This document shows positions 10,984 to 46,808 of a DNA stretch of 64,000 nucleotides, piece by piece (position 1 is the stretch's first letter; every line of letters begins with the position of its first letter). The notes under the pieces were generated by a model. The model was not told where the DNA came from. It ran no database searches and saw nothing but the letters and a program-made list of their open reading frames with translations. Position numbers and translations under genes: made by a program. Origin of the DNA: Hymenobacter cellulosivorans (GTDB taxonomy: Bacteria > Bacteroidota > Bacteroidia > Cytophagales > Hymenobacteraceae); contig NZ_CP095049.1 in NCBI RefSeq assembly GCF_022919135.1, positions 2,794,501 through 2,858,500 on the forward strand, in the 5' to 3' direction.

Positions 10984-13326
10984 CTAAAACTTGAAATTAT
11001 ATGTGACTGAGGGAATAACCGGAAACAATGACACCTGCCGGGCCCGGAAATTGGTTACCTCCCTGGTTTCCTTATTGCGCACCTGCTCGAAATAGATGAA
11101 GTAGGGGTTGCGCCGGTTGTAGGCGTTGTACACCGAGAAGGTCAGGTCCGATTCGCCGCGCTTGGGCCGCAGCTTGTACACCATGCCCAGGTCCATGCGG
11201 TGGTAAGGGGCCATGCGGTAGGTGTTGCGGTCGGGATAAATCGGAACGGCCATCGGGTTGTCGCCGAAAATATCCTGGACCAGAAAGCGGCCCTGGGGTA
11301 GCGTGGTGGGTGCCCCCGAGGTAAAGACAAAGGAAGCCGTGAGGTTGATTCGCTCGTTGAGCTGGTGCAGACCCACCACCGTCAGGTTGTGGCGCCGGTC
11401 GTAGGTAGGGTAAAATACCTTGCCGTTGTTGACGCCGCTGCTGCCCCGCTGCGGCGGAAACTGCCGCTGGGTCCAGGCCAGGGAGTAGCCGAGCCAGCCC
11501 GTGGTGCGGCCCGATTTCTTTTCCAGGTAGATTTCGTTGCCATACGACCAGCCCTTGCCGAAGAGGAATTCGGCGTCCAGATCTTCGTTGGCAAACAACT
11601 GGGCCCCGTCGCGGAAATCCACCTGGTTTTGGGCCCACTTGTAGTACACCTCGTCGGTGAGCAGGTATTTGCCTTCGCCCAGCAAAAAGCTGATGCCGGT
11701 GGCAACCTGCTGGGAGCGTTGGGGCTTCACGTTGAGACGGGACGGATACCAGATGTCGGTCGGCAACGACGCGCCCGAATTCGTGACGAGGTGCACGTAC
11801 TGGTACATCATGGCGTAGCTGGCCTTCACCGACGTTTTGGGCGTGAGGGAGTAGCGCACGGCCCCGCGCGGTTCGAGGGCCGCATACCGGTCGGAGCCAC
11901 TCTGGAAACCGGTCAGGCGCAGGCCGTAATCCAGCTGCAGCTTGTCACTGGCCTTGAAGTTGTCAGAGGCATACACCGACGCTTCCTGGCCTCGGTAAAT
12001 GATTTCAGAGCCGATGTTCAGGCTGCCGTCGGTGCTGCTGGCCGAGAGCCGACCCACGTTGAAGCGGTGGTTGGTGGCACTCACGCCTAGCTTGAGCGTA
12101 TGCTTGTCGGAAGCCAGGTAGTCGAGGTCGGAGCGCAAGGCATAGTCCAGAATTTCCGACGACAAACTGAAGCCGAACTGGTCGAGCTTGTTGGCAATCT
12201 GGTACTGGTAGCGCGTGGCCGAAACAGTAGTGTTCAAAAACAGCTTGGGCGAAAAAACGTGGTTCCAGCGCAGCGCCCCCACGGCGTTGCCCCAGGTAAA
12301 GTCGAAGTTGAAGCCCCCGGTGCTGTTGAAGCCGAACACGTCCCGGCCGTAGTAGCCGGTCAGAAACACTTGGTCTTTCTGGCCCAGCTTGTAGTTGGCC
12401 TTGGCGTTGAAATCGTAGAAATAGTAGTCGGGAATGGGGCTGTAGTCCTCAGTGTCCTTGTTGAGCTTATTGATCTGGCGGGTGAAGACGTCGAAATACG
12501 TGCGGCGGCCCGACAGCGAAAAGGCGCCCTTGTCTTTCACGATGGGCCCGTCCAGAGTTAGGCGCGACGAAATCAGCCCCAGGCCGCCGCTGACGCCCAG
12601 CTTCTCGGGGTTGCCGTCCTTGGTCTTTACATCCACCACCGACGAAAGCCGGCCGCCGTACTGAGCCGGAAAGCCACCTTTGTAGAGGTCCACACTTTGA
12701 ATGGCGTCGGCATTGAACACCGAAAACAGGCCGAACAGGTGGCTCGGGTTGTACACCACCGCGTCGTCGAGCAGGAACAGGTTCTGGTCGGCCGAGCCGC
12801 CCCGCACAAACAGGCCGCTGGTGCCTTCCCCACCGTTTTGCACGCCGGGCTTGAGTTGCAGGGTTTTAAGTAAATCGACTTCCCCAAACAGGGCCGGCAG
12901 CAGCTTGGCGTCGCGGGCGTTGAGGTGCTCCACGCTCATCTGGGTGGTTTGCAGCTTCTGCTCCAGCGTGCCCGTGCCCTCAATCACGACTTCGCCAAGC
13001 TGGTTGCTGGCCTCAGGCAAGCTAAAGGAAATCCGCTGCGACTTGGTCAGGTTCAGCTCCCGGGTCTGAGTCTGGTAGCCGATAAAGGAAATGCTCAGTT
13101 GGTAGCGGCCCTCGGGCAGCGTCAGAGAATAAAATCCTTCGGCGTCGGCGGTGGCCCCGGTACCCAGCGTGGGCACAGCCACCGAGGCGCCCGGCAACAC
13201 ACTGCGGTCGGCCCCGGAGCGCACGTAGCCGCTGATGGTAAAGCGCTGCTGGGCTAGTAGCCCGCCGGGCACTACACTTAACAAAAAGAAAATACTAAAT
13301 CGAAGAATCGAACTCACTAAACGCAT
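10984..13326 (-). CDS. TonB-dependent receptor with carboxypeptidase-like N-terminal domain
   Basis: 780 residues from the ATG at 13326. The order is: signal peptide ending near LLAQQ, a carboxypeptidase-D regulatory-like domain (FTISGYVRSGADRSVLPGAS..., ~25-110), a plug domain with FVRGGSADQNLFLLDDAVVY, and a 22-strand-type outer-membrane barrel ending in an aromatic TYNFKF. It imports an unknown ligand in a TonB-dependent way and is the partner of the DUF4249 lipoprotein downstream. The start fits an exact -7 box 26 bases upstream; a codon nine positions earlier is possible but would spoil the signal peptide. Confidence 0.93.
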   Translation of the reverse strand: MRLVSSILRFSIFFLLSVVPGGLLAQQRFTISGYVRSGADRSVLPGASVAVPTLGTGATADAEGFYSLTLPEGRYQLSISFIGYQTQTRELNLTKSQRISFSLPEASNQLGEVVIEGTGTLEQKLQTTQMSVEHLNARDAKLLPALFGEVDLLKTLQLKPGVQNGGEGTSGLFVRGGSADQNLFLLDDAVVYNPSHLFGLFSVFNADAIQSVDLYKGGFPAQYGGRLSSVVDVKTKDGNPEKLGVSGGLGLISSRLTLDGPIVKDKGAFSLSGRRTYFDVFTRQINKLNKDTEDYSPIPDYYFYDFNAKANYKLGQKDQVFLTGYYGRDVFGFNSTGGFNFDFTWGNAVGALRWNHVFSPKLFLNTTVSATRYQYQIANKLDQFGFSLSSEILDYALRSDLDYLASDKHTLKLGVSATNHRFNVGRLSASSTDGSLNIGSEIIYRGQEASVYASDNFKASDKLQLDYGLRLTGFQSGSDRYAALEPRGAVRYSLTPKTSVKASYAMMYQYVHLVTNSGASLPTDIWYPSRLNVKPQRSQQVATGISFLLGEGKYLLTDEVYYKWAQNQVDFRDGAQLFANEDLDAEFLFGKGWSYGNEIYLEKKSGRTTGWLGYSLAWTQRQFPPQRGSSGVNNGKVFYPTYDRRHNLTVVGLHQLNERINLTASFVFTSGAPTTLPQGRFLVQDIFGDNPMAVPIYPDRNTYRMAPYHRMDLGMVYKLRPKRGESDLTFSVYNAYNRRNPYFIYFEQVRNKETREVTNFRARQVSLFPVIPSVTYNFKF

Positions 13327-39362: not shown

Positions 39363-40931
39363 CTAGTGGGTGTAGGGACCCCAGTCGTCTTCGAAGTAGC
39401 GCACCAGGGCCTGGTTGTTGAGCTGATTGATTTCGGTGGGCACCTCGGCCATGTCGGGCGGGAAGTGGAGCATTTCCTTGAGCGTGGCAGGGGTGAGGTA
39501 GCGCAGGCCCTTGGGCAAAGCGCCGTCGCCGCGCCAGTGGCCGTTGCGGCCGGCCAGCACATAGCCCCACTCCCCGAAGGAAGGCACATAAGTGTGGTAG
39601 GGAATGGTGTGGAAGCCGGCGGCCTGCAGGGTGTGGCTGATGCACCAAAACGACTTCTGGGCCACGTAGGGCGAGGTGCTTTGTACTACCATCAGCCCAT
39701 TGGGAGTCAGTAATTTGTGCAGCTCGGTGTAAAACGAGGTGCTGTAGAGCTTGCCGATGGAGTAGTTGGAGGGGTCAGGAAAGTCGACGACCAGCAGGTC
39801 ATAGCGGGTCGTGTCGTGGCGCACCCACTGGTAGGCGTCGCCGTTGATAACCTGCACTTTGGGGTGGTTCAGGGCGCCCTTGTTCAGGGCCAGCAGCATG
39901 GGGTTGTGCTGAAATAAATGGGTCATACCCGCGTCGAGGTCGACGAGGCGGATGTGCTGGAGCTGCGGGTACTTAAGCAGCTCGCGCACGGCTAGGCCGT
40001 CGCCGCCGCCAAGCACGAGGACGCGCTGGGCTTTCGGCAGAGCCTGCATGGCGGGGTGTACCAGGGCTTCGTGGTAGCGGTACTCGTCGGCGGAGCTGAA
40101 TTGGAGGTTGCCGTTGAGGAACAGGCGCAGCTCACGGTTGTTGCGCGTGAGCACGATGCGCTGGTACACAGTGCTTTTGCTGTAGATAACCTGGTCCTGA
40201 AAGGCCATGGTTTCGGTGTAGGTCATGATGCGCTCGGCGTAGCCAAAGCCCACGGCCAGCAGCAGCAGGGTCCCGACCATAATACCTGCAAAGCTGCGGC
40301 GGTAGGGCCGGGTTTCGGGGAAGCGGTAGAGCGCCACGGCGGCCACCACCACGTTCAGAGCACCGAAAAACAGGGACGTGCGAATCAAACCGAGCTGGGG
40401 CACCAGCACCAGCGGGAAGATGAGCGAAGCCAGCAGGGCCCCGATGTAGTCGAAAGTGAAAACCCGGGAAACCAGGTCCTTGAACTCGTAGCGGTTTTCC
40501 AGAATCCGCATCAGCAGCGGAATTTCCAGGCCTACCAGAATGCCGGTGAGGCCTACCAGGGAGTAAAGAATCAGCCGAAAGGAGCTGACGTACTCGAAGA
40601 GCACAAAGAGCAGGGGCGCCGAGAAGCCCCCAACCAGTCCCACCAGGATTTCGAGCCGGATAAACCACTTGAGCAGGAGCCCGTCGAGGTAGCGGGAAAG
40701 CCAGGAGCCGATACCCATCGAAAACAGGTAGGCCCCGATGATAGTAGAAAACTGCGTGACCGAGTCGCCGAGCAGGTAGCTGGCCAGGGTGCCGGCAATC
40801 AGCTCGTAGATCAGGCCGCAGGTGGCAATGACGAACACCGAGCCCAGCAGCAGGGCCGGCAGGTGGTCGGGGCTACTGCTGGTGCGGCGGCTCTGCTGGT
40901 TGGGCGGCGTCAGCACGGGCTGGTTAGCCAT
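39363..40931 (-). CDS. speE: Spermidine synthase-like aminopropyltransferase with membrane domain
   Basis: 522 residues. The N-terminal ~240 residues hold seven or so transmembrane helices; the C-terminal part is a spermidine synthase fold with VLVLGGGDGLAVRELLKYP, the acidic RLVDLDAGM, INGDAYQW and the catalytic region LLVVDFPDPSN. It would transfer an aminopropyl group from decarboxylated SAM to an amine. The membrane fusion is typical of the copies found with DUF350 genes. The start overlaps the DUF350 stop by eight bases. The acceptor is unknown and need not be putrescine. Confidence 0.9.
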   Translation of the reverse strand: MANQPVLTPPNQQSRRTSSSPDHLPALLLGSVFVIATCGLIYELIAGTLASYLLGDSVTQFSTIIGAYLFSMGIGSWLSRYLDGLLLKWFIRLEILVGLVGGFSAPLLFVLFEYVSSFRLILYSLVGLTGILVGLEIPLLMRILENRYEFKDLVSRVFTFDYIGALLASLIFPLVLVPQLGLIRTSLFFGALNVVVAAVALYRFPETRPYRRSFAGIMVGTLLLLAVGFGYAERIMTYTETMAFQDQVIYSKSTVYQRIVLTRNNRELRLFLNGNLQFSSADEYRYHEALVHPAMQALPKAQRVLVLGGGDGLAVRELLKYPQLQHIRLVDLDAGMTHLFQHNPMLLALNKGALNHPKVQVINGDAYQWVRHDTTRYDLLVVDFPDPSNYSIGKLYSTSFYTELHKLLTPNGLMVVQSTSPYVAQKSFWCISHTLQAAGFHTIPYHTYVPSFGEWGYVLAGRNGHWRGDGALPKGLRYLTPATLKEMLHFPPDMAEVPTEINQLNNQALVRYFEDDWGPYTH

Positions 40932-41139
40932 GAATGGCGGAACTGATAATCAGGGCTACCGAGAGCATAAACGCCGCGGCCACAATGGCCAGGGCCGTGT
41001 TGTGCTCGTCCACGATTTCCTTCCAGAGGGTCTTGGGCGTGAGCTTGTCGATGATGATAAAGCTGAGCACCAGAATCAGAATGCCCAGCACCGAATACAC
41101 GATGGAGGCGGTAATGAGCTTGAAGTTGAGGTATTCCAT
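40924..41139 (-). CDS. DUF350 membrane protein
   Basis: 71 residues with two transmembrane helices (about 10-30 and 47-68), the size of a single DUF350 unit. Charged residues sit between the helices (DKLTPKTLWKEIVDEHNTA), including the typical acidic/Asn region. DUF350 proteins (E. coli YjfL) are found with aminopropyltransferases and DUF4178 proteins; their biochemical role is not known. It overlaps the downstream speE gene by eight bases and is translationally coupled to it. Confidence 0.88.
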   Translation of the reverse strand: MEYLNFKLITASIVYSVLGILILVLSFIIIDKLTPKTLWKEIVDEHNTALAIVAAAFMLSVALIISSAIHG

Positions 41140-41141
41140 CG

Positions 41142-41234
41142 GTGAGTTAGTGATTCAGTGAATGAGTGAAGTAGATGGATGGCGTGGATGCGAGTCAAGA
41201 GCGACAACTCACTCATTTACTCAATCACTCATTC
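41142..41234. repeat. Imperfect inverted repeat in the operon
   Basis: Two ~28-base arms (about 41144-41171 and 41206-41233) made of GAGTGA/GTGATT-like units pair with a few mismatches. It fills the 97-bp gap between DUF350 and the small anchored protein and could form an mRNA hairpin within the transcript. Confidence 0.6.
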
Positions 41235-41236
41235 GC

Positions 41237-41425
41237 CTATTTATGGTAGAAGTTGGAGCGGCCGCTGTGGCCACTGGAGTGGCCGCCGGTGCCGTTGAGG
41301 TTTTCGGTGGTTTCGTTGTCGTCGCCGAGCAGACGCACGCCGTGCAGGCTGATGTAGAGGTAGCTGGCGTAGGTAAGCAAAGCCAGGACGAGGTAAAGGC
41401 GCAGATTCAGCAAGTCGCGGAGCAT
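41237..41425 (-). CDS. Small single-pass membrane protein with Gly/Ser/His-rich tail
   Basis: 62 residues: one hydrophobic helix (about 9-28) followed by a short acidic/Asn stretch and a tail GTGGHSSGHSGRSNFYHK with three histidines. It lies between the DUF350 and DUF4178 genes, 19 bases after the latter. No family known to me. The His-rich tail might bind a metal. Function is inferred only from its position. Confidence 0.6.
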   Translation of the reverse strand: MLRDLLNLRLYLVLALLTYASYLYISLHGVRLLGDDNETTENLNGTGGHSSGHSGRSNFYHK

Positions 41426-41444
41426 AGGGGCGGGCGAAAAGGCG

Positions 41445-42764
41445 TTAGGTCAGGTGCGGGGGTGGGAAGTTGCTTTGTTCCCAGCGCTGGTGCTCGTGGC
41501 TGTGGCGGCGGTAGAACAGCACGGCGGGGTAAAGCAGCAGCGCCAGCACGACGAGCAGCAGGTTGCTGGGCACCCAGGGATTCTCGGTGACGGTGACCGA
41601 AAAAGTCACCTGCCGGTTGTAGTCGGTGGCAGGGTAGAGGTTGAGGTGGTAACGGCCGGGCGGCACCTCGGCCAGGGTAGCCTCGGCCTCCACGCTGCCC
41701 TCCGACCAGCTGTAGCCATCCTCTACGCCGGAGTAGTGCTCAATGCTCTTGGTGAACTCGAAGCCCTGTCCGGTTTGCTCATTAACCAAGCTCACGGGTA
41801 GCTCCAGCCAGGTATTGTTCACGGAACTGTGTACCTCGAAGTTGAGCACCGCCGGCCCCTGGTGCACCTCAAAGGACTCCGAGACCTGAACTTTGCCGGT
41901 GGCGTCGGCCGTAGCCAGCGGGGCAGCGCCCACGTCACTGACAAACTCCTGATTCAGTAGCTCGCGACGGGGGCGCACGCCCACCATGACCAGCTCGGTG
42001 AGCAGGGTCAAAATCAGCAGCAGCCAGGTCAGGTTCTTCAGCGCGGGCCAGGAGTTGCCGCCGGGCGGGGGCTGCACGGCACCCACGCCCGAGCGGTAGG
42101 GTAGCCGGGACATCGTCAGCCCGAAAGCCTGGGCAATGTGCTTCGGCTCGATGTGCTCGGCGCGGTACCAGTGCACCGGCCGGTTCTTGGCCTTTTCCTC
42201 GACCAGCATCAGGGGCGGGGCCACAAACTCGGTGACGGTCAGCTGCTCGTCGTCCAGGACGTTCCAGTCGAACTCGCCCGTAGCGTAGAGGATGCGGGGC
42301 TGGTACTTGTTGTAAATATGGAACGTGGTGTCGCCGTCCAGAGCTACGCGGTGGCTGCCCGAGCGGCCCGGCAGGCCCTTGTGCTCCTGGTCGGAAGGCT
42401 TGATAAACGTCCAGTGCCCCTCGTACACGGCCAGCTGGGCATAGCCCGTATCGGGGTTGAAGAGCATGAATTCGAGCCAGCGGGCCGGCGAACTGGCTTC
42501 CTTGCGGAGCATGTAGCCCGTTACACGGTACTGTAGGCCGTCGGGCATGGTCCCGATGCTGCCCAGCGGCAGGATAGGCGCTTCCCGCGGCACGTCCTGA
42601 AACGACTTAAGCCGCTCGGTCGTCCCGTTGGGCTGCCGCTTAAACAGGGTGTGGCACTCCGGACAGCCGAAGACAGTACTGGCTAGCGGGTCATAATACG
42701 TGAGCTGGGCCAGGCAGCTAGGGCAGGCGACCCGGGCTTCGAGAGAAGTAACCTGGCCGCTCAT
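41445..42764 (-). CDS. DUF4178 zinc-ribbon membrane protein
   Basis: 439 residues. The N-terminal zinc ribbon uses Cys14, Cys17, Cys34 and Cys37 (ACPSC ... GCPEC). The DUF4178 region follows (LGSIGTMPDGLQYRVTGYML..., ~65-205), with the WLEFMLFNPDTGYAQLAVYEGHWTFI core. Two transmembrane helices flank a periplasmic beta-domain of ~130 residues. DUF4178 proteins accompany DUF350 and aminopropyltransferases in many genomes, and their function is not established. The ATG overlaps the stop of the decarboxylase-like gene (ATGA). Confidence 0.88.
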   Translation of the reverse strand: MSGQVTSLEARVACPSCLAQLTYYDPLASTVFGCPECHTLFKRQPNGTTERLKSFQDVPREAPILPLGSIGTMPDGLQYRVTGYMLRKEASSPARWLEFMLFNPDTGYAQLAVYEGHWTFIKPSDQEHKGLPGRSGSHRVALDGDTTFHIYNKYQPRILYATGEFDWNVLDDEQLTVTEFVAPPLMLVEEKAKNRPVHWYRAEHIEPKHIAQAFGLTMSRLPYRSGVGAVQPPPGGNSWPALKNLTWLLLILTLLTELVMVGVRPRRELLNQEFVSDVGAAPLATADATGKVQVSESFEVHQGPAVLNFEVHSSVNNTWLELPVSLVNEQTGQGFEFTKSIEHYSGVEDGYSWSEGSVEAEATLAEVPPGRYHLNLYPATDYNRQVTFSVTVTENPWVPSNLLLVVLALLLYPAVLFYRRHSHEHQRWEQSNFPPPHLT

Positions 42765-43114
42765 CGGGCTACTTCGGTTTTGGTCAGCTCGGTGGCTTCG
42801 AAAAACCGTAGCGTTTCAGCATACAGTTGCCGGACGGTGGCCGAATTGTCGCGCTGGTAATTCGACAAAAACACGTCGAAAGTGGCTTGCCCAAACTCGG
42901 GCCAGGTGTGAATGCTCAGGTGGGACTCGGTCAGGCCAACCACGGCCGTAAAGCTGTGGTTGGGAAACGAGTGGTACACTTCGCCCACTTTTACTAGCCC
43001 TAAACGATTAATCTGCTGGTCGAAAAACGCCTGGCAGGCCGCGGCATCCGTCAGGTGGGCCACTGGGGCGCGGAACGTAGCCAAGATGTGGAGCCCGGGA
43101 GTATAAAGCTGCAT
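42761..43114 (-). CDS. speH: S-adenosylmethionine decarboxylase-like protein
   Basis: 117 residues, the size of prokaryotic class 1b enzymes that supply decarboxylated SAM for spermidine synthesis. The self-cleavage motif TESHLSIHTWPEFG is intact, with Ser65 as pyruvoyl precursor and His69. The catalytic cysteine usually present a few residues on (VDVFTCG in T. maritima) is replaced: FDVFLSNYQ. Either this is a divergent but active form or it has changed function. It is the first gene of the cluster; the next start codon overlaps its stop. The symbol reflects family, not proven activity. Confidence 0.82.
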   Translation of the reverse strand: MQLYTPGLHILATFRAPVAHLTDAAACQAFFDQQINRLGLVKVGEVYHSFPNHSFTAVVGLTESHLSIHTWPEFGQATFDVFLSNYQRDNSATVRQLYAETLRFFEATELTKTEVAR

Positions 43115-43197: not shown

Positions 43198-43917
43198 TTA
43201 GCGCAGCTGAAACAGGTCGTCGACGCCCAGCAGGCGGCGGCAGGTAAAGCCCTCGGCGAAGGGCACGTTGATGTACTTGCCACAGTCGCGGGCCTGGCCT
43301 TCGAGAATTTTGAGAAAGTCGGGGGAGGAAATGTAAGTCGAGGTCGGGTCTTCGTAGTCGGGGTGGTAAAACTGGCTTTTGAACGCTGTTACGGCCTCCA
43401 GCTTCCGGTCCCAGTACTCGGTGATGTCCACGACGATATCGGGCTTGACGTAGGTATTGTGGATGACTTGCAGCATCAGGTCGGGCCGCCAGGCGGGCTG
43501 GGGCTGGTCTTGCCAGAGGGTTTCGATTTTGGGCAGGCCCGAGAGAAATGCCGCGTCGTGGACTAGGTTGGCGGCCCGGCCGTGGTCGGGGTGGCGGTCC
43601 ACGTTGGGGTTGGTCAGGATAATAGAGGGTCGGAAACGGCGGATAACCTGGATGACTTGCCGTTGATGGGCCTCATCGTTGAGGAAGAACCCGTCGCGCA
43701 TGCCCAGGTTTTCGCGCATGTGCAACCCCAGGATGCGGGCCGAGTCGGCGGCTTCCTCGGCGCGCAGCTCGGCCGAGCCCCGGGTGCCCAGCTCCCCGCG
43801 CGTGAGGTCGACGACACCCACGCGGCGGCCCTTGGCAATGTGCTTCATCAGCGTGCCCGCGCAGCCCACTTCGGCGTCGTCGGGGTGGGCGGCAATCATC
43901 AGAATATCTAACTTCAT
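43198..43917 (-). CDS. bshB1: Bacillithiol biosynthesis deacetylase BshB1
   Basis: 239 residues. A PIG-L/LmbE-type zinc deacetylase that removes the acetyl group from GlcNAc-malate. It has the metal motif AAHPDDAEVGC (His11, Asp14), DLTRGELGTRG, and NPNVDRHPDHGRAANLVHDAAF. The C-terminal VPFAEGFTCRRLLGVDDLFQL is typical of BshB1. Bacillithiol is the low-molecular-weight thiol of this phylum. It lies downstream of the ATP-grasp/LLM pair on the same strand but is separated from it by 225 bases holding a repeat. Confidence 0.94.
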   Translation of the reverse strand: MKLDILMIAAHPDDAEVGCAGTLMKHIAKGRRVGVVDLTRGELGTRGSAELRAEEAADSARILGLHMRENLGMRDGFFLNDEAHQRQVIQVIRRFRPSIILTNPNVDRHPDHGRAANLVHDAAFLSGLPKIETLWQDQPQPAWRPDLMLQVIHNTYVKPDIVVDITEYWDRKLEAVTAFKSQFYHPDYEDPTSTYISSPDFLKILEGQARDCGKYINVPFAEGFTCRRLLGVDDLFQLR

Positions 43918-45168: not shown

Positions 45169-46175
45169 TATACCGTGGCGGTTTCAGGTTGAACTTCGGT
45201 AGCAAAGGCGGTGGCGGCTACGCCGGGCAGCTGGCTTTCGAGGTAATCCACGAAGCGGGCGTAGGGGTCGAAGCCCACCACGTTCACGGCGTCGGCCACG
45301 AAGTTGGACAGGGCGTTGACGTCGTAGAAAAGCACGTCGCCGGTGCGGTCGTCAATCAGGTACTCAATGCCGCCCACGTCGATTTTGGCGGCGGCCACGA
45401 TGCGCTCCACGGCTTCGATAACCTCCGCGGGGGGCGTAAAGGCTTCCACCTGAATGCCTTTCTTGGGCGCTTCGGTCAGGCAGAACTCGGCCGACTGCTC
45501 CTCGGGAATCTGGCAGATTTCGGCCGGGCAGAGGTTGAAGCTTTCCCCGGTCGTAAACACCTTCATGGCGTAGAGAAACTTCCCATCGAGGGTTTCTACC
45601 CGGTGAATGTTGCCGCCGCGGGGCGTCACATACTCCTGCACCAGGGCCGTTTGGTCGATGCCCAGGTCAATCTGACCCGCGGCCACGGCCGATTCTACGC
45701 CCTCAATCGTGTCGAAGCGGATGATACCGGCCCCGCTGCCGCCGATGTTGACTTTGACCACAATCGGGAACTGCAGCTGCTGGGCAGCGTCGGCAATGCG
45801 GGAGGCGTGGTTGACCACGAAGGATTTGGGATATTTCAAGCCCAGGGAAGCAAACAGGGAAAGCTGCCGGGCCTTGTTGGTTTCGATGGCCGTTGCGGCC
45901 GAGCCGTTGATGATGCGCGTGCCAATACGCTCCAAATGCGTAGCAAAACCAGCCGTGTGGAAGATACCCTGACCGTGGCCGCGCAGGTAGGCTGAGGAGC
46001 TCATTCGGTTCACTACCAGCGAGTAGCGGCTCTCGGTTTCGGAGGGGTCGAAGAGGTGGTGGGCAGCGTCAATCTTTTCGTAAGGCAGGCCCCGGCGGTC
46101 AAGCTCGGCAAACAGGGGCTTGAACCATTCGGGGTGCTCGTAATAAATGCCTATCGGCTTTTGGGGCTGGGCCAT
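45168..46175 (-). CDS. RimK-like ATP-grasp ligase
   Basis: 335 residues, cytoplasmic. The N-terminal pre-ATP-grasp domain has IGIYYEHPEWFKPLFAELDR. The central lid region has FPIVVKVNIGGSGAGIIRFD. The ATP/Mg site includes VQEYVTPRGGNIHRVETLDG and, near the end, GGIEYLIDDRTGDVLFYDVNALSNF. These enzymes form amide bonds between a carboxylate and an amine or thiol via an acyl phosphate. The ATG at 46175 starts the conserved region. It is translationally coupled to the LLM gene and preceded by a ~500-base leader with a SAM-I riboswitch. The substrate is unknown; a sulfur-containing amide is inferred. Confidence 0.85.
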   Translation of the reverse strand: MAQPQKPIGIYYEHPEWFKPLFAELDRRGLPYEKIDAAHHLFDPSETESRYSLVVNRMSSSAYLRGHGQGIFHTAGFATHLERIGTRIINGSAATAIETNKARQLSLFASLGLKYPKSFVVNHASRIADAAQQLQFPIVVKVNIGGSGAGIIRFDTIEGVESAVAAGQIDLGIDQTALVQEYVTPRGGNIHRVETLDGKFLYAMKVFTTGESFNLCPAEICQIPEEQSAEFCLTEAPKKGIQVEAFTPPAEVIEAVERIVAAAKIDVGGIEYLIDDRTGDVLFYDVNALSNFVADAVNVVGFDPYARFVDYLESQLPGVAATAFATEVQPETATV

Positions 46176-46558
46176 GAGTTGTATGAAAAAAGGAGTGTGA
46201 CAAGAGAAAGGCCGCGGTTGGGCGGCAGAATCGGCAATGCCCGCAAGTGCAGAGCCTGCCCAGTAACTGATAGGCGTTAGAAACCCACAGCCAGAACCGA
46301 CCGACGCGCGGCCACGCAGCAACGGGCTGTCAGGCGAAAAACCAACAAGGCAGGGGCAGCAATGGGCTAATAGCCAGAGCAGGGGGGCAGGACCGGAAGA
46401 GCAGGAGCTAGTCGGTCAGCGGGCAGGGGAGAAGGAAACTAGCAACAACAGCCAGCCCCAGCCAGAGGCCAACAACAGCCTGCGGCAGAGGCAGACTGGG
46501 GCTGGGCTACGAAAGCAGCGGAAAGGGCAGAAAAGTTGTTGGCAGTGTCCACGGCAAC
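46176..46558 (-). other. Pyrimidine-rich leader between riboswitch and ATP-grasp gene
   Basis: About 380 transcribed bases without an ATG-started frame. On the minus strand it is strongly C/T-rich. It holds a hairpin whose arms (46451-46462 and 46498-46509, AGCCCCAG type) pair over 11 of 12 positions. Just after the aptamer, AAGTTG and CAACTT can form a stem before a T run, a candidate expression platform. No gene seen. Confidence 0.55.
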
Positions 46559-46658
46559 TTGTTTTTATATGGTCAGGACTTGGCACCGTTCCAGCTCATC
46601 ACTGGGGGTTGCCGGCGTATCGTCGAGCCTGTCTCTCCACGCCTCTGTATAAAAACAA
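46559..46658 (-). promoter_or_regulatory. SAM-I (S-box) riboswitch aptamer
   Basis: All core parts of SAM-I are visible in order on the minus strand. P1 is an 11-bp helix (TTGTTTTTATA at 46658-46648 with its complement at 46569-46559). P2 is GGCGT/ACGCC, with the GTGGAGAGACAGG internal part. The hallmark CGCCGGCAACC follows, then P3 (CCAG/CTGG) and GGTGCCAAGTCCTG for P4 and the P1 return. It binds S-adenosylmethionine and normally switches off methionine/sulfur genes when SAM is high. It lies ~30 bases downstream of a full promoter and controls the ATP-grasp/LLM pair. Confidence 0.92.
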
Positions 46659-46685
46659 TCCTTTGGTCAGAAAGAATTGACTCTG

Positions 46686-46717
46686 CAAAGGTAAGGCGAC
46701 GCGCAGCACAGTTACAA
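46686..46717 (-). promoter_or_regulatory. Bacteroidota promoter of the riboswitch operon
   Basis: The -7 box TACCTTTG (46693-46686) is preceded by TTG (46717-46715) with a 21-base spacer, the full consensus TTG-N19-21-TAnnTTTG. It is the best complete promoter in the window; the transcript would start near 46680. Confidence 0.8.
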
Positions 46718-46769: not shown

Positions 46770-46808
46770 ACAGAAAAGCCCCGCAGAGGTTCCGCGGGGC
46801 TTTTCTGT
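46770..46808 (-). terminator. Terminator after the SGNH hydrolase gene
   Basis: A 15-bp stem (ACAGAAAAGCCCCGC and its complement, 9-base loop) with A/T runs in both arms. On the minus strand it follows the hydrolase stop at 46827. Confidence 0.88.

Follow-up and report, generated by a model that had tools for sequence, protein, structure and literature searches.

A SAM-I riboswitch and a polycysteine reading frame combined in the leaders of an ATP-grasp/monooxygenase operon and other supply-type genes of Hymenobacteraceae

In the SAM-I leaders examined here from Hymenobacteraceae, almost all of those that precede supply-type genes carry, a few nucleotides behind the aptamer, a short reading frame with a run of cysteine codons. 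The aptamer, the frame, the short spacing between them and their combination at supply-type genes are direct observations. One such leader lies in a window of 64,000 nucleotides from Hymenobacter cellulosivorans, in front of the genes of an ATP-grasp ligase and a luciferase-like monooxygenase (LLM). Judging from its sequence, it is probably a two-input leader that responds to SAM and to cysteine and serves a sulfur-supply operon; less certain in this model are how exactly the gate works and what chemistry the enzymes perform. The composite leader is a more interesting object than the riboswitch alone.

The leader in the window consists, in its 5' part, of a SAM-I riboswitch with a Bacteroidota-type promoter (Table 1). 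The cmscan match to RF00162 covers the whole model (1-108) at 46655-46562 of the minus strand with 72.2 bits (E 5.9e-15), against a gathering score of 44.4, and the P1 helix pairs TTGTTTTTATA (46658-46648) with TATAAAAACAA (46569-46559) over 11 bp without a mismatch. The original prediction had named this riboswitch, an 11-bp P1, two core elements and a TTG-N21-TACCTTTG promoter about 30 bases 5' of the aptamer; model search and pairing bear out the first two, both core elements are seen in the RF00162 alignment, and the promoter is found at 46717-46686, 30 nt away. Among the 34 related ATP-grasp/LLM leaders from the best 80 of at least 551 loci, TAnnTT[TC]G lies 30-50 nt 5' of the aptamer in 32, and a motif of the CAATTCTTT-N-AAAGGATTG type is present in 31. 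A similar pattern is seen in other SAM-I leaders, at APC permease genes (11 of 14) and cysH (1 of 13), with none at metY (0 of 23) or metH (0 of 30). The ATP-grasp gene (ATG at 46175) begins 386 nt from the aptamer, with the cysteine-rich short frame inside this distance, and shares one base (45168) with the LLM gene. That the riboswitch heads this operon, as had been claimed, agrees with its conservation in 24 of 25 Hymenobacteraceae relatives, but the riboswitch is only half of a composite leader.

Table 1. Features of the composite leader and its operon in the window (positions of the 64,000-nucleotide stretch).
Feature	Position	Strand	Basis and remarks
Terminator-like GC-rich inverted repeat between T/A runs	46772..46808		By eye; divides the leader unit from the upstream DUF4886 gene
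Bacteroidota-type promoter, TTG-N21-TACCTTTG	46686..46717	-	Read from sequence; stops 30 nt 5' of the aptamer
Possible 5' hairpin, CAATTCTTT-N6-AAAGGATTG, in the promoter-aptamer interval	46656..46679	-	Sequence; similar motif in relatives
SAM-I riboswitch aptamer	46562..46655	-	RF00162, 72.2 bits; extended P1 reaches 46559-46658, 11 bp
Polycysteine leader ORF, GTG start, 37 codons, MDTANNFSALSAAFVAQPQSASAAGCCWPLAGAGCCC and stop	46439..46552	-	Translation; leader class kept in relatives
Stretch without translated frame, leader ORF to ATP-grasp, 263 nt; presumed switch site	46176..46438	-	Sequence
ATP-grasp ligase, LysX/ArgX/RimK fold, 335 aa	45168..46175	-	Pfam RimK 26 bits (cut-off 21); predicted structure
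Luciferase-like monooxygenase (LLM), 341 aa	44143..45168	-	Pfam Bac_luciferase 213.5 bits; nearest PDB 3rao, 8vw6

The other half starts at the GTG at 46552, six bases past the extended P1 (9 nt from the Rfam boundary), which opens a frame of 37 codons down to a stop at 46439, and the C-terminal end of the encoded peptide is made of cysteine codons, …GCCWPLAGAGCCC followed by the stop. The source genome has six SAM-I riboswitches, and five of them are followed by a polycysteine frame, namely those at cysH, the ATP-grasp/LLM operon, SusC, the APC permease and metY; metH has the sole SAM-I leader of this genome without one. Apart from the cysteine end, the peptide body differs between genes. This variation, together with the presence of the same type of frame before cysH, metY, APC and SusC, argues against the frame encoding a functional small protein that stores thiol or metal, or a precursor peptide on which the ATP-grasp/LLM pair acts, a reading that appeals to the peptide-modifying ATP-grasp enzymes of some pathways, with PsnB among the fold matches of the ligase, and that we regard as highly improbable. 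A precursor of the pair in particular was rejected, since other genes besides the pair have the frame before them.

The association was surveyed in 41 Hymenobacteraceae genomes, 40 of which gave a SAM-I match. From the 138 matches tallied, six being those of the source genome, which were excluded, 90 leaders were drawn, 30 automatically, one per genome, and 60 by picking down the list. The downstream gene was assigned by tblastn against the source genome's own set, with homoserine dehydrogenase and one transporter-like gene (L285) named by eye, and a frame was counted when it held at least three Cys in 10 residues. By this criterion it is present at 13 of 13 cysH genes, 19 of 19 MetY genes of the source's own type, 13 of 14 APC genes (one leader of this class being without it), 3 of 3 SusC, the single M14 peptidase, both ATP-grasp genes and the transporter-like gene, and at none of four MetY-like matches of 34-36% identity and none of three homoserine dehydrogenases. 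Two of 30 metH leaders were flagged (L301, L333), with starts 16-18 nt from the aptamer. MetY itself is an OAH/OAS sulfhydrylase by TIGR01326 (675.7 bits, cut-off 495.1).

For the grouped comparison, a start within 12 nt of the aptamer was additionally demanded, a limit outside which the two metH frames fall. Such a frame is found in 52 of 53 supply-type leaders (cysH, MetY, APC permease, SusC, M14, the ATP-grasp/LLM pair and the transporter-like gene; 51 of 52 without L285, which has the frame) and in none of the 37 others (30 metH, three homoserine dehydrogenases and the four MetY hits of 34-36% identity), a split drawn up after the per-gene results were known and covering related, and hence not independent, genomes. 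Like the Fisher p given below, these counts are unadjusted for kinship. Two hundred dinucleotide shuffles averaged 2.4 of 53 and 0.2 of 37 under the same limit, and 6.1 (maximum 11) of 53 and 0.5 of 37 when the limit was dropped. The 52 frames start with ATG (26), GTG (25) or TTG (1), exactly 9 nt past the aptamer in 27 cases and within 12 nt in all; they are 26-55 codons long and use TGT (174) and TGC (108) as cysteine codons. They combine two traits of a leader-peptide attenuator, a codon run for the sensed amino acid and controlled genes that make or acquire that amino acid. Methionine, on the other hand, is needed even when cysteine is ample, so the aptamer alone fits metH and homoserine dehydrogenase.

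It might be argued that the SAM-I riboswitch acts alone and that the cysteine-rich frame is a by-product of repetitive TGYTGY sequence. At metH, SAM-I does occur without the frame in the same genomes, TGTTGTTGC is simple sequence, and the source genome has 33 copies of the pattern TGYTGYTGYTGYTRR, against 10 of its reversed control, with just two of the 33 located in SAM-I leaders. Such a by-product would hardly sort, when a single procedure is applied to all leaders, into 52 of 53 and 0 of 37, or place the cysteine run in frame with a nearby start where shuffles yield 2.4 of 53, and we consider it improbable. In 57 within-class pairs of leaders, third codon positions vary most (419 changes, against 306 and 293) and synonymous changes reach their highest share, 0.31, when the true frame is read (0.22 and 0.19 otherwise), but gap lengths in the leader-frame alignments lack the multiple-of-three pattern typical of coding sequence (17, 44 and 6 gaps with remainders 0, 1 and 2). 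The frames of the metY (L224-L227, L230, L313), cysH and SusC leaders hold about 2.3 internal Met each, compared with 0.15 in APC; perhaps methionine is sensed as well by these leader frames.

At the ATP-grasp/LLM pair itself, a frame with at least three Cys in 10 and a start within 13 nt stands behind all 24 SAM-I aptamers upstream of the pair in the Hymenobacteraceae relatives, and behind all 34 that lie directly upstream of it in the named loci (the best 80 of at least 551), two sets that share species. Among the carriers are Hymenobacter, Solirubrum, Pontibacter (L116) and Nafulsella (L114). Of the SusC leaders in pair loci, that of L053 has the frame by the same cysteine count and that of L051 has only two Cys in any 10 residues; one Chryseolinea leader also has only two. 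Among 70 leaders chosen across the phylum, the script flagged five, and four were accepted (L162, L169, L181, L184), one in another family of the source's order and three in one family of its class; the fifth, L208, was dropped, its frame being 62 nt away and its Cys not terminal. The frame is rarer outside Hymenobacteraceae, and therefore the composite leader, as far as these sequences go, looks centred on the order of the source organism. Behind one SAM-I leader outside this family (L199) stands a frame rich in Met (…MCSPSMRMRMPMSCFSYMCA), which may encode a leader peptide of the methionine type. A search for polycysteine frames without SAM-I (at least four Cys in the last 12 residues, within 6 kb upstream) covered 48 loci, to which the pair loci lacking a SAM-I hit among L041-L072 do not belong. 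It found none in 42 of them; the frames of L114 and L116 are those already named, and the candidates of L084, L102, L104 and L119, which lie 1.9-4.8 kb upstream, were set aside on visual inspection.

How the two signals would be combined is best considered from the stretch between frame and gene. A terminator scan behind the frame found no consistent intrinsic terminator in the leader classes. In the window, three weak terminator-like hits fall in 751 bases against 1.3 in shuffles, and a single clean attenuator hairpin was discarded because the full leader folds no better than its shuffles (z -0.68). Hits exceed the background of one shuffle at APC (6 of 13 against 2), metH (4 of 30 against 0) and M14 (1 of 1 against 0), and are near background elsewhere. 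The stretch from frame to gene has a modest C-over-G bias (7.9%, against 4.3% in genes), with C exceeding G in 86% of 51 leaders; the APC leaders have no such bias (C/G 1.00). This composition is compatible with Rho-dependent termination and is no proof of it.

With P1 so near the start codon, its SAM-bound form would presumably hide the A-rich region at which the leader peptide is initiated, and the peptide would be translated once SAM is low. The cysteine run, in turn, suggests stalling under Cys-tRNA shortage, and a ribosome stalled there would block premature termination, perhaps Rho-dependent, in the next 100-400 nt. With initiation gated by SAM and stalling at the cysteine run, expression would therefore need low SAM with low cysteine, the operon being on solely when both are low. 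A composite leader could equally be built of independent inputs, additive or OR-like, for instance if SAM-I terminated or blocked by itself and the leader peptide acted on the folding of the downstream RNA. The lack of a shared terminator in our scans favours this arrangement, and the spacing of P1 and start is by itself no proof of occlusion; against it, the distance between start and aptamer is kept short (9 nt in 27 of 52, at most 12 nt in all), as would follow from an effect of the aptamer on initiation, and we take independent inputs to be rather unlikely. The fullest version of the gated model joins three parts: a SAM-I aptamer that gates the translation of a cysteine-counting leader, giving a strict requirement for low SAM and low cysteine; the presence or absence of the Cys frame, behind aptamers that are otherwise alike, as a code legible in the sequence that separates sulfur-supply from methyl-transfer genes; and the widespread ATP-grasp/LLM pair, by this code, as a new route of organosulfur assimilation in Bacteroidota, Planctomycetota, Acidobacteriota and Deinococcota. 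Taken jointly, these parts make a tentative proposal, possible rather than probable.

The pair is patchily distributed and its genes keep together. The 26 of 100 Hymenobacteraceae genomes that have an orthologue of the ATP-grasp ligase (above 400 bits) are also the 26 with one of the LLM (E up to 1e-90). Across the phylum, 8 of 395 genomes drawn gave a strong ATP-grasp match (E up to 1e-40), four in the source's genus (the source genome included) and four distant (33%), and no SAM-I was found in the latter four. The named loci are the best 80 of at least 551 candidates by ATP-grasp similarity and so not a random sample; their records belong to Bacteroidota, Acidobacteriota, Planctomycetota and Armatimonadota. 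In 77 of these 80 an LLM gene lies downstream of the ATP-grasp gene (it is missing in L089, L100 and L104); in 73 the distance is at most 322 nt, and in L052, L076, L077 and L091 it is 1.1-1.5 kb.

As for the riboswitch, it was found upstream of the pair in all the Hymenobacteraceae relatives but one (L025), where none appears even at E up to 0.1. Among the same best 80 of at least 551 loci, a SAM-I model trained on the pair's own leader group, and holding only 15 base pairs, matched in 37 and found none in 43. Of the matches, 34 lie directly upstream of the pair, those of L051 and L053 precede a SusC-SusD-ATP-grasp-LLM run, and in Chryseolinea serpens (L080) one match stands before a same-strand gene run leading to the pair and a second, SAM-I-like match at 12564-12670 stands before a sulfatase-like gene, named by eye. 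Five of the 43 (L073, L076, L078, L081, L099) were scanned with the Rfam model and likewise gave no SAM-I, nor did L126, L127 and L129. The last of these, a Pediococcus plasmid, has in a row a thioredoxin-domain protein, an amino acid:cation symporter and a distant (28%) ATP-grasp ligase. A plasmid of Deinococcus peraridilitoris carries a SAM-I riboswitch (60.6 bits) followed by a 426-aa ATP-grasp protein and an LLM 57% identical to that of the window; the ATP-grasp protein has no significant full-length similarity to that of the window (best piece E 0.008). The same two genes are present in D. deserti, where they lie behind genes annotated as D-cysteine desulfhydrase and amino acid racemase, and no SAM-I was found there. 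With SAM-I before an unrelated ATP-grasp gene and an LLM gene in Deinococcus, SAM control of this enzyme combination, to judge by these comparisons, may have arisen twice.

The original prediction had described the two enzymes as RimK-like and SsuD-like. The RimK-like ATP-grasp and the monooxygenase family stand as described. The predicted structure of the ligase (pLDDT 81) has LysX, RimK and ArgX as its best PDB matches, and the top Foldseek match is the LysX entry 3vpd (TM 0.70 by query, 0.82 by target); PsnB, an ATP-grasp enzyme crystallised with a precursor peptide, is also among the fold matches. It shares the fold of these ligases and differs from them in its low identity (15-20% in the top structural matches) and in scoring under the curated NCBIfam cut-offs of the named families (for the RimK alpha-L-glutamate ligase model TIGR00768, 65.5 against 143.4 bits). 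Its best sequence matches, among the matches listed, are from Hymenobacter.

An SsuD-like function of the LLM, by contrast, found no support. Although SsuD and SfnG belong to the same luciferase-like family and are the nearest curated models, both assignments were rejected, SsuD at 188.5 bits (curated cut-offs 510-518, 518.2 for the model) and SfnG at 256.4 bits (382.95). The sulfonate-binding Arg/His pair of Escherichia coli SsuD (R226/H228) is absent from the alignment of the window LLM, with A and Y in its place, and Y stands at this site in 0.97 of 80 LLM sequences; the SsuD motif FGIRLHVIVRE reads FGVAAYSVVRN in the window. Instead, YVMHG and YSVSNRGLR are nearly invariant (0.97-0.99 of the 80 sequences). 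The nearest relatives are 3rao (424 bits) and 8vw6 (344 bits), two PDB entries deposited with generic names.

The amino groups on which LysX and ArgX work are kept protected, and this inspires the idea of amine masking. In the version that we judge most likely, an organosulfur amino acid or peptide would be imported, the ATP-grasp ligase would acylate or mask an amine on it, and its oxidation by the LLM would release usable sulfur; SusCD, an M14 carboxypeptidase and the APC permease would probably feed the pair. Genes for SusC, SusD and an M14 peptidase lie in the pair locus in Spirosoma (L073, L074) and in two Hymenobacter (L051, L053), in the latter two with SAM-I heading SusC, and an APC permease gene follows downstream on the same strand in 19 of the best 80 of at least 551 loci, Spirosoma included. 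The counterparts in the source genome (identity to the cluster representatives 58% for SusC, 57% for SusD, 62% for M14 and 84% for APC) are dispersed, and SusC-SusD-M14 and APC each have their own leader of SAM-I and Cys frame. Of 100 Hymenobacteraceae genomes, 18 have an M14 orthologue with 53% identity or more, and the pair is present in 10 of these 18 against 16 of the other 82 (Fisher p 0.005, kinship ignored). A second APC permease and an SsuD-leaning LLM (237.7 bits, cut-off 518.2) are encoded at 505-3037 of L130, next to the SAM-I-controlled SusC operon of the source genome and divergent from it; a similar couple lies near the ATP-grasp gene in Spirosoma L078 and L126, the last being a plasmid of Spirosoma oryzicola with the ATP-grasp gene, two permeases and the second LLM, in which a copy of the first LLM was not found.

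Alternatively, the pair might be biosynthetic, making a sulfur-containing metabolite or thiol rather than releasing sulfur, in which case repression by SAM and cysteine would keep sulfur from being consumed. Amide formation is the usual activity of ATP-grasp ligases, and 225 nt past the LLM gene the window has a gene for the bacillithiol deacetylase BshB1 (43198-43917; 267.7 bits, cut-off 182.5). A consumer would be expected to be off at sulfur scarcity, yet the leader class here is that of the supply genes, and the bshB1 cluster is found in only 3 of the best 80 of at least 551 loci, in the window across that gap; a biosynthetic pair is accordingly unlikely in our estimate. Downstream of bshB1, on the minus strand (39363-43114), are genes for a SpeD-like AdoMet decarboxylase (61.8 bits, cut-off 75.65), a protein with DUF4178 and a polyamine aminopropyltransferase (PRK03612, 680 bits). 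A search of the stretch between the pair and the bshB1 and polyamine genes found no terminator on the minus strand, so these genes may be co-transcribed; given the 3 of 80 loci, they were not counted as part of the unit. Returning to sulfur supply, the class of leader with a Cys frame marks the ATP-grasp/LLM operon as a sulfur-supply module, and the company of the SAM-I regulon, in which the aptamer sits in a 5' leader with its promoter, strengthens the sulfur membership that had been predicted for it. The sulfur role of the operon itself we infer, and that its pathway would be an undescribed one, as was also claimed, stays presumptive.

Among known systems, the closest is SAM-I (the S-box, RF00162) itself, with which these leaders share a full aptamer above the gathering score before sulfur genes, but from which those of Hymenobacteraceae differ in the polycysteine frame close behind it at supply-type genes and in that no consistent terminator was found. 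The Salmonella mgtCBR leader, and the mgtA leader similar to it, respond to signals other than SAM and cysteine, and mgtCBR is not known to have a SAM aptamer or a Cys run. The likeness lies in the combination of short ORFs with RNA structure in a long leader, there arranged as tandem attenuators (PMC3641672). Polycysteine short ORFs of mycobacteria are reported to attenuate operons in response to cysteine (Canestrari et al. 2020, doi 10.1111/mmi.14498; cited in PMC13236596 and PMC7790235); they share the short polycysteine frame but are reportedly leaderless, whereas the frame in Bacteroidota stands behind a SAM-I aptamer. In a further article, attenuation by upstream ORFs is called a major competitor (PMC9971707). 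No paper describing the combination of SAM-I with a polycysteine leader was found in the PMC articles searched, and since subscription papers and preprints lie largely outside that search, the novelty is provisional.

A riboswitch and a leader-peptide attenuator, usually treated as alternatives, appear here closely joined and sorted by gene function. The Hymenobacteraceae offer in this way a natural series, metH without the frame and cysH, metY and APC with it, that can serve as a test set for how two sulfur signals are combined. An uncharacterised enzyme pair of several phyla gains a functional label, and its LLM has relatives of solved structure.
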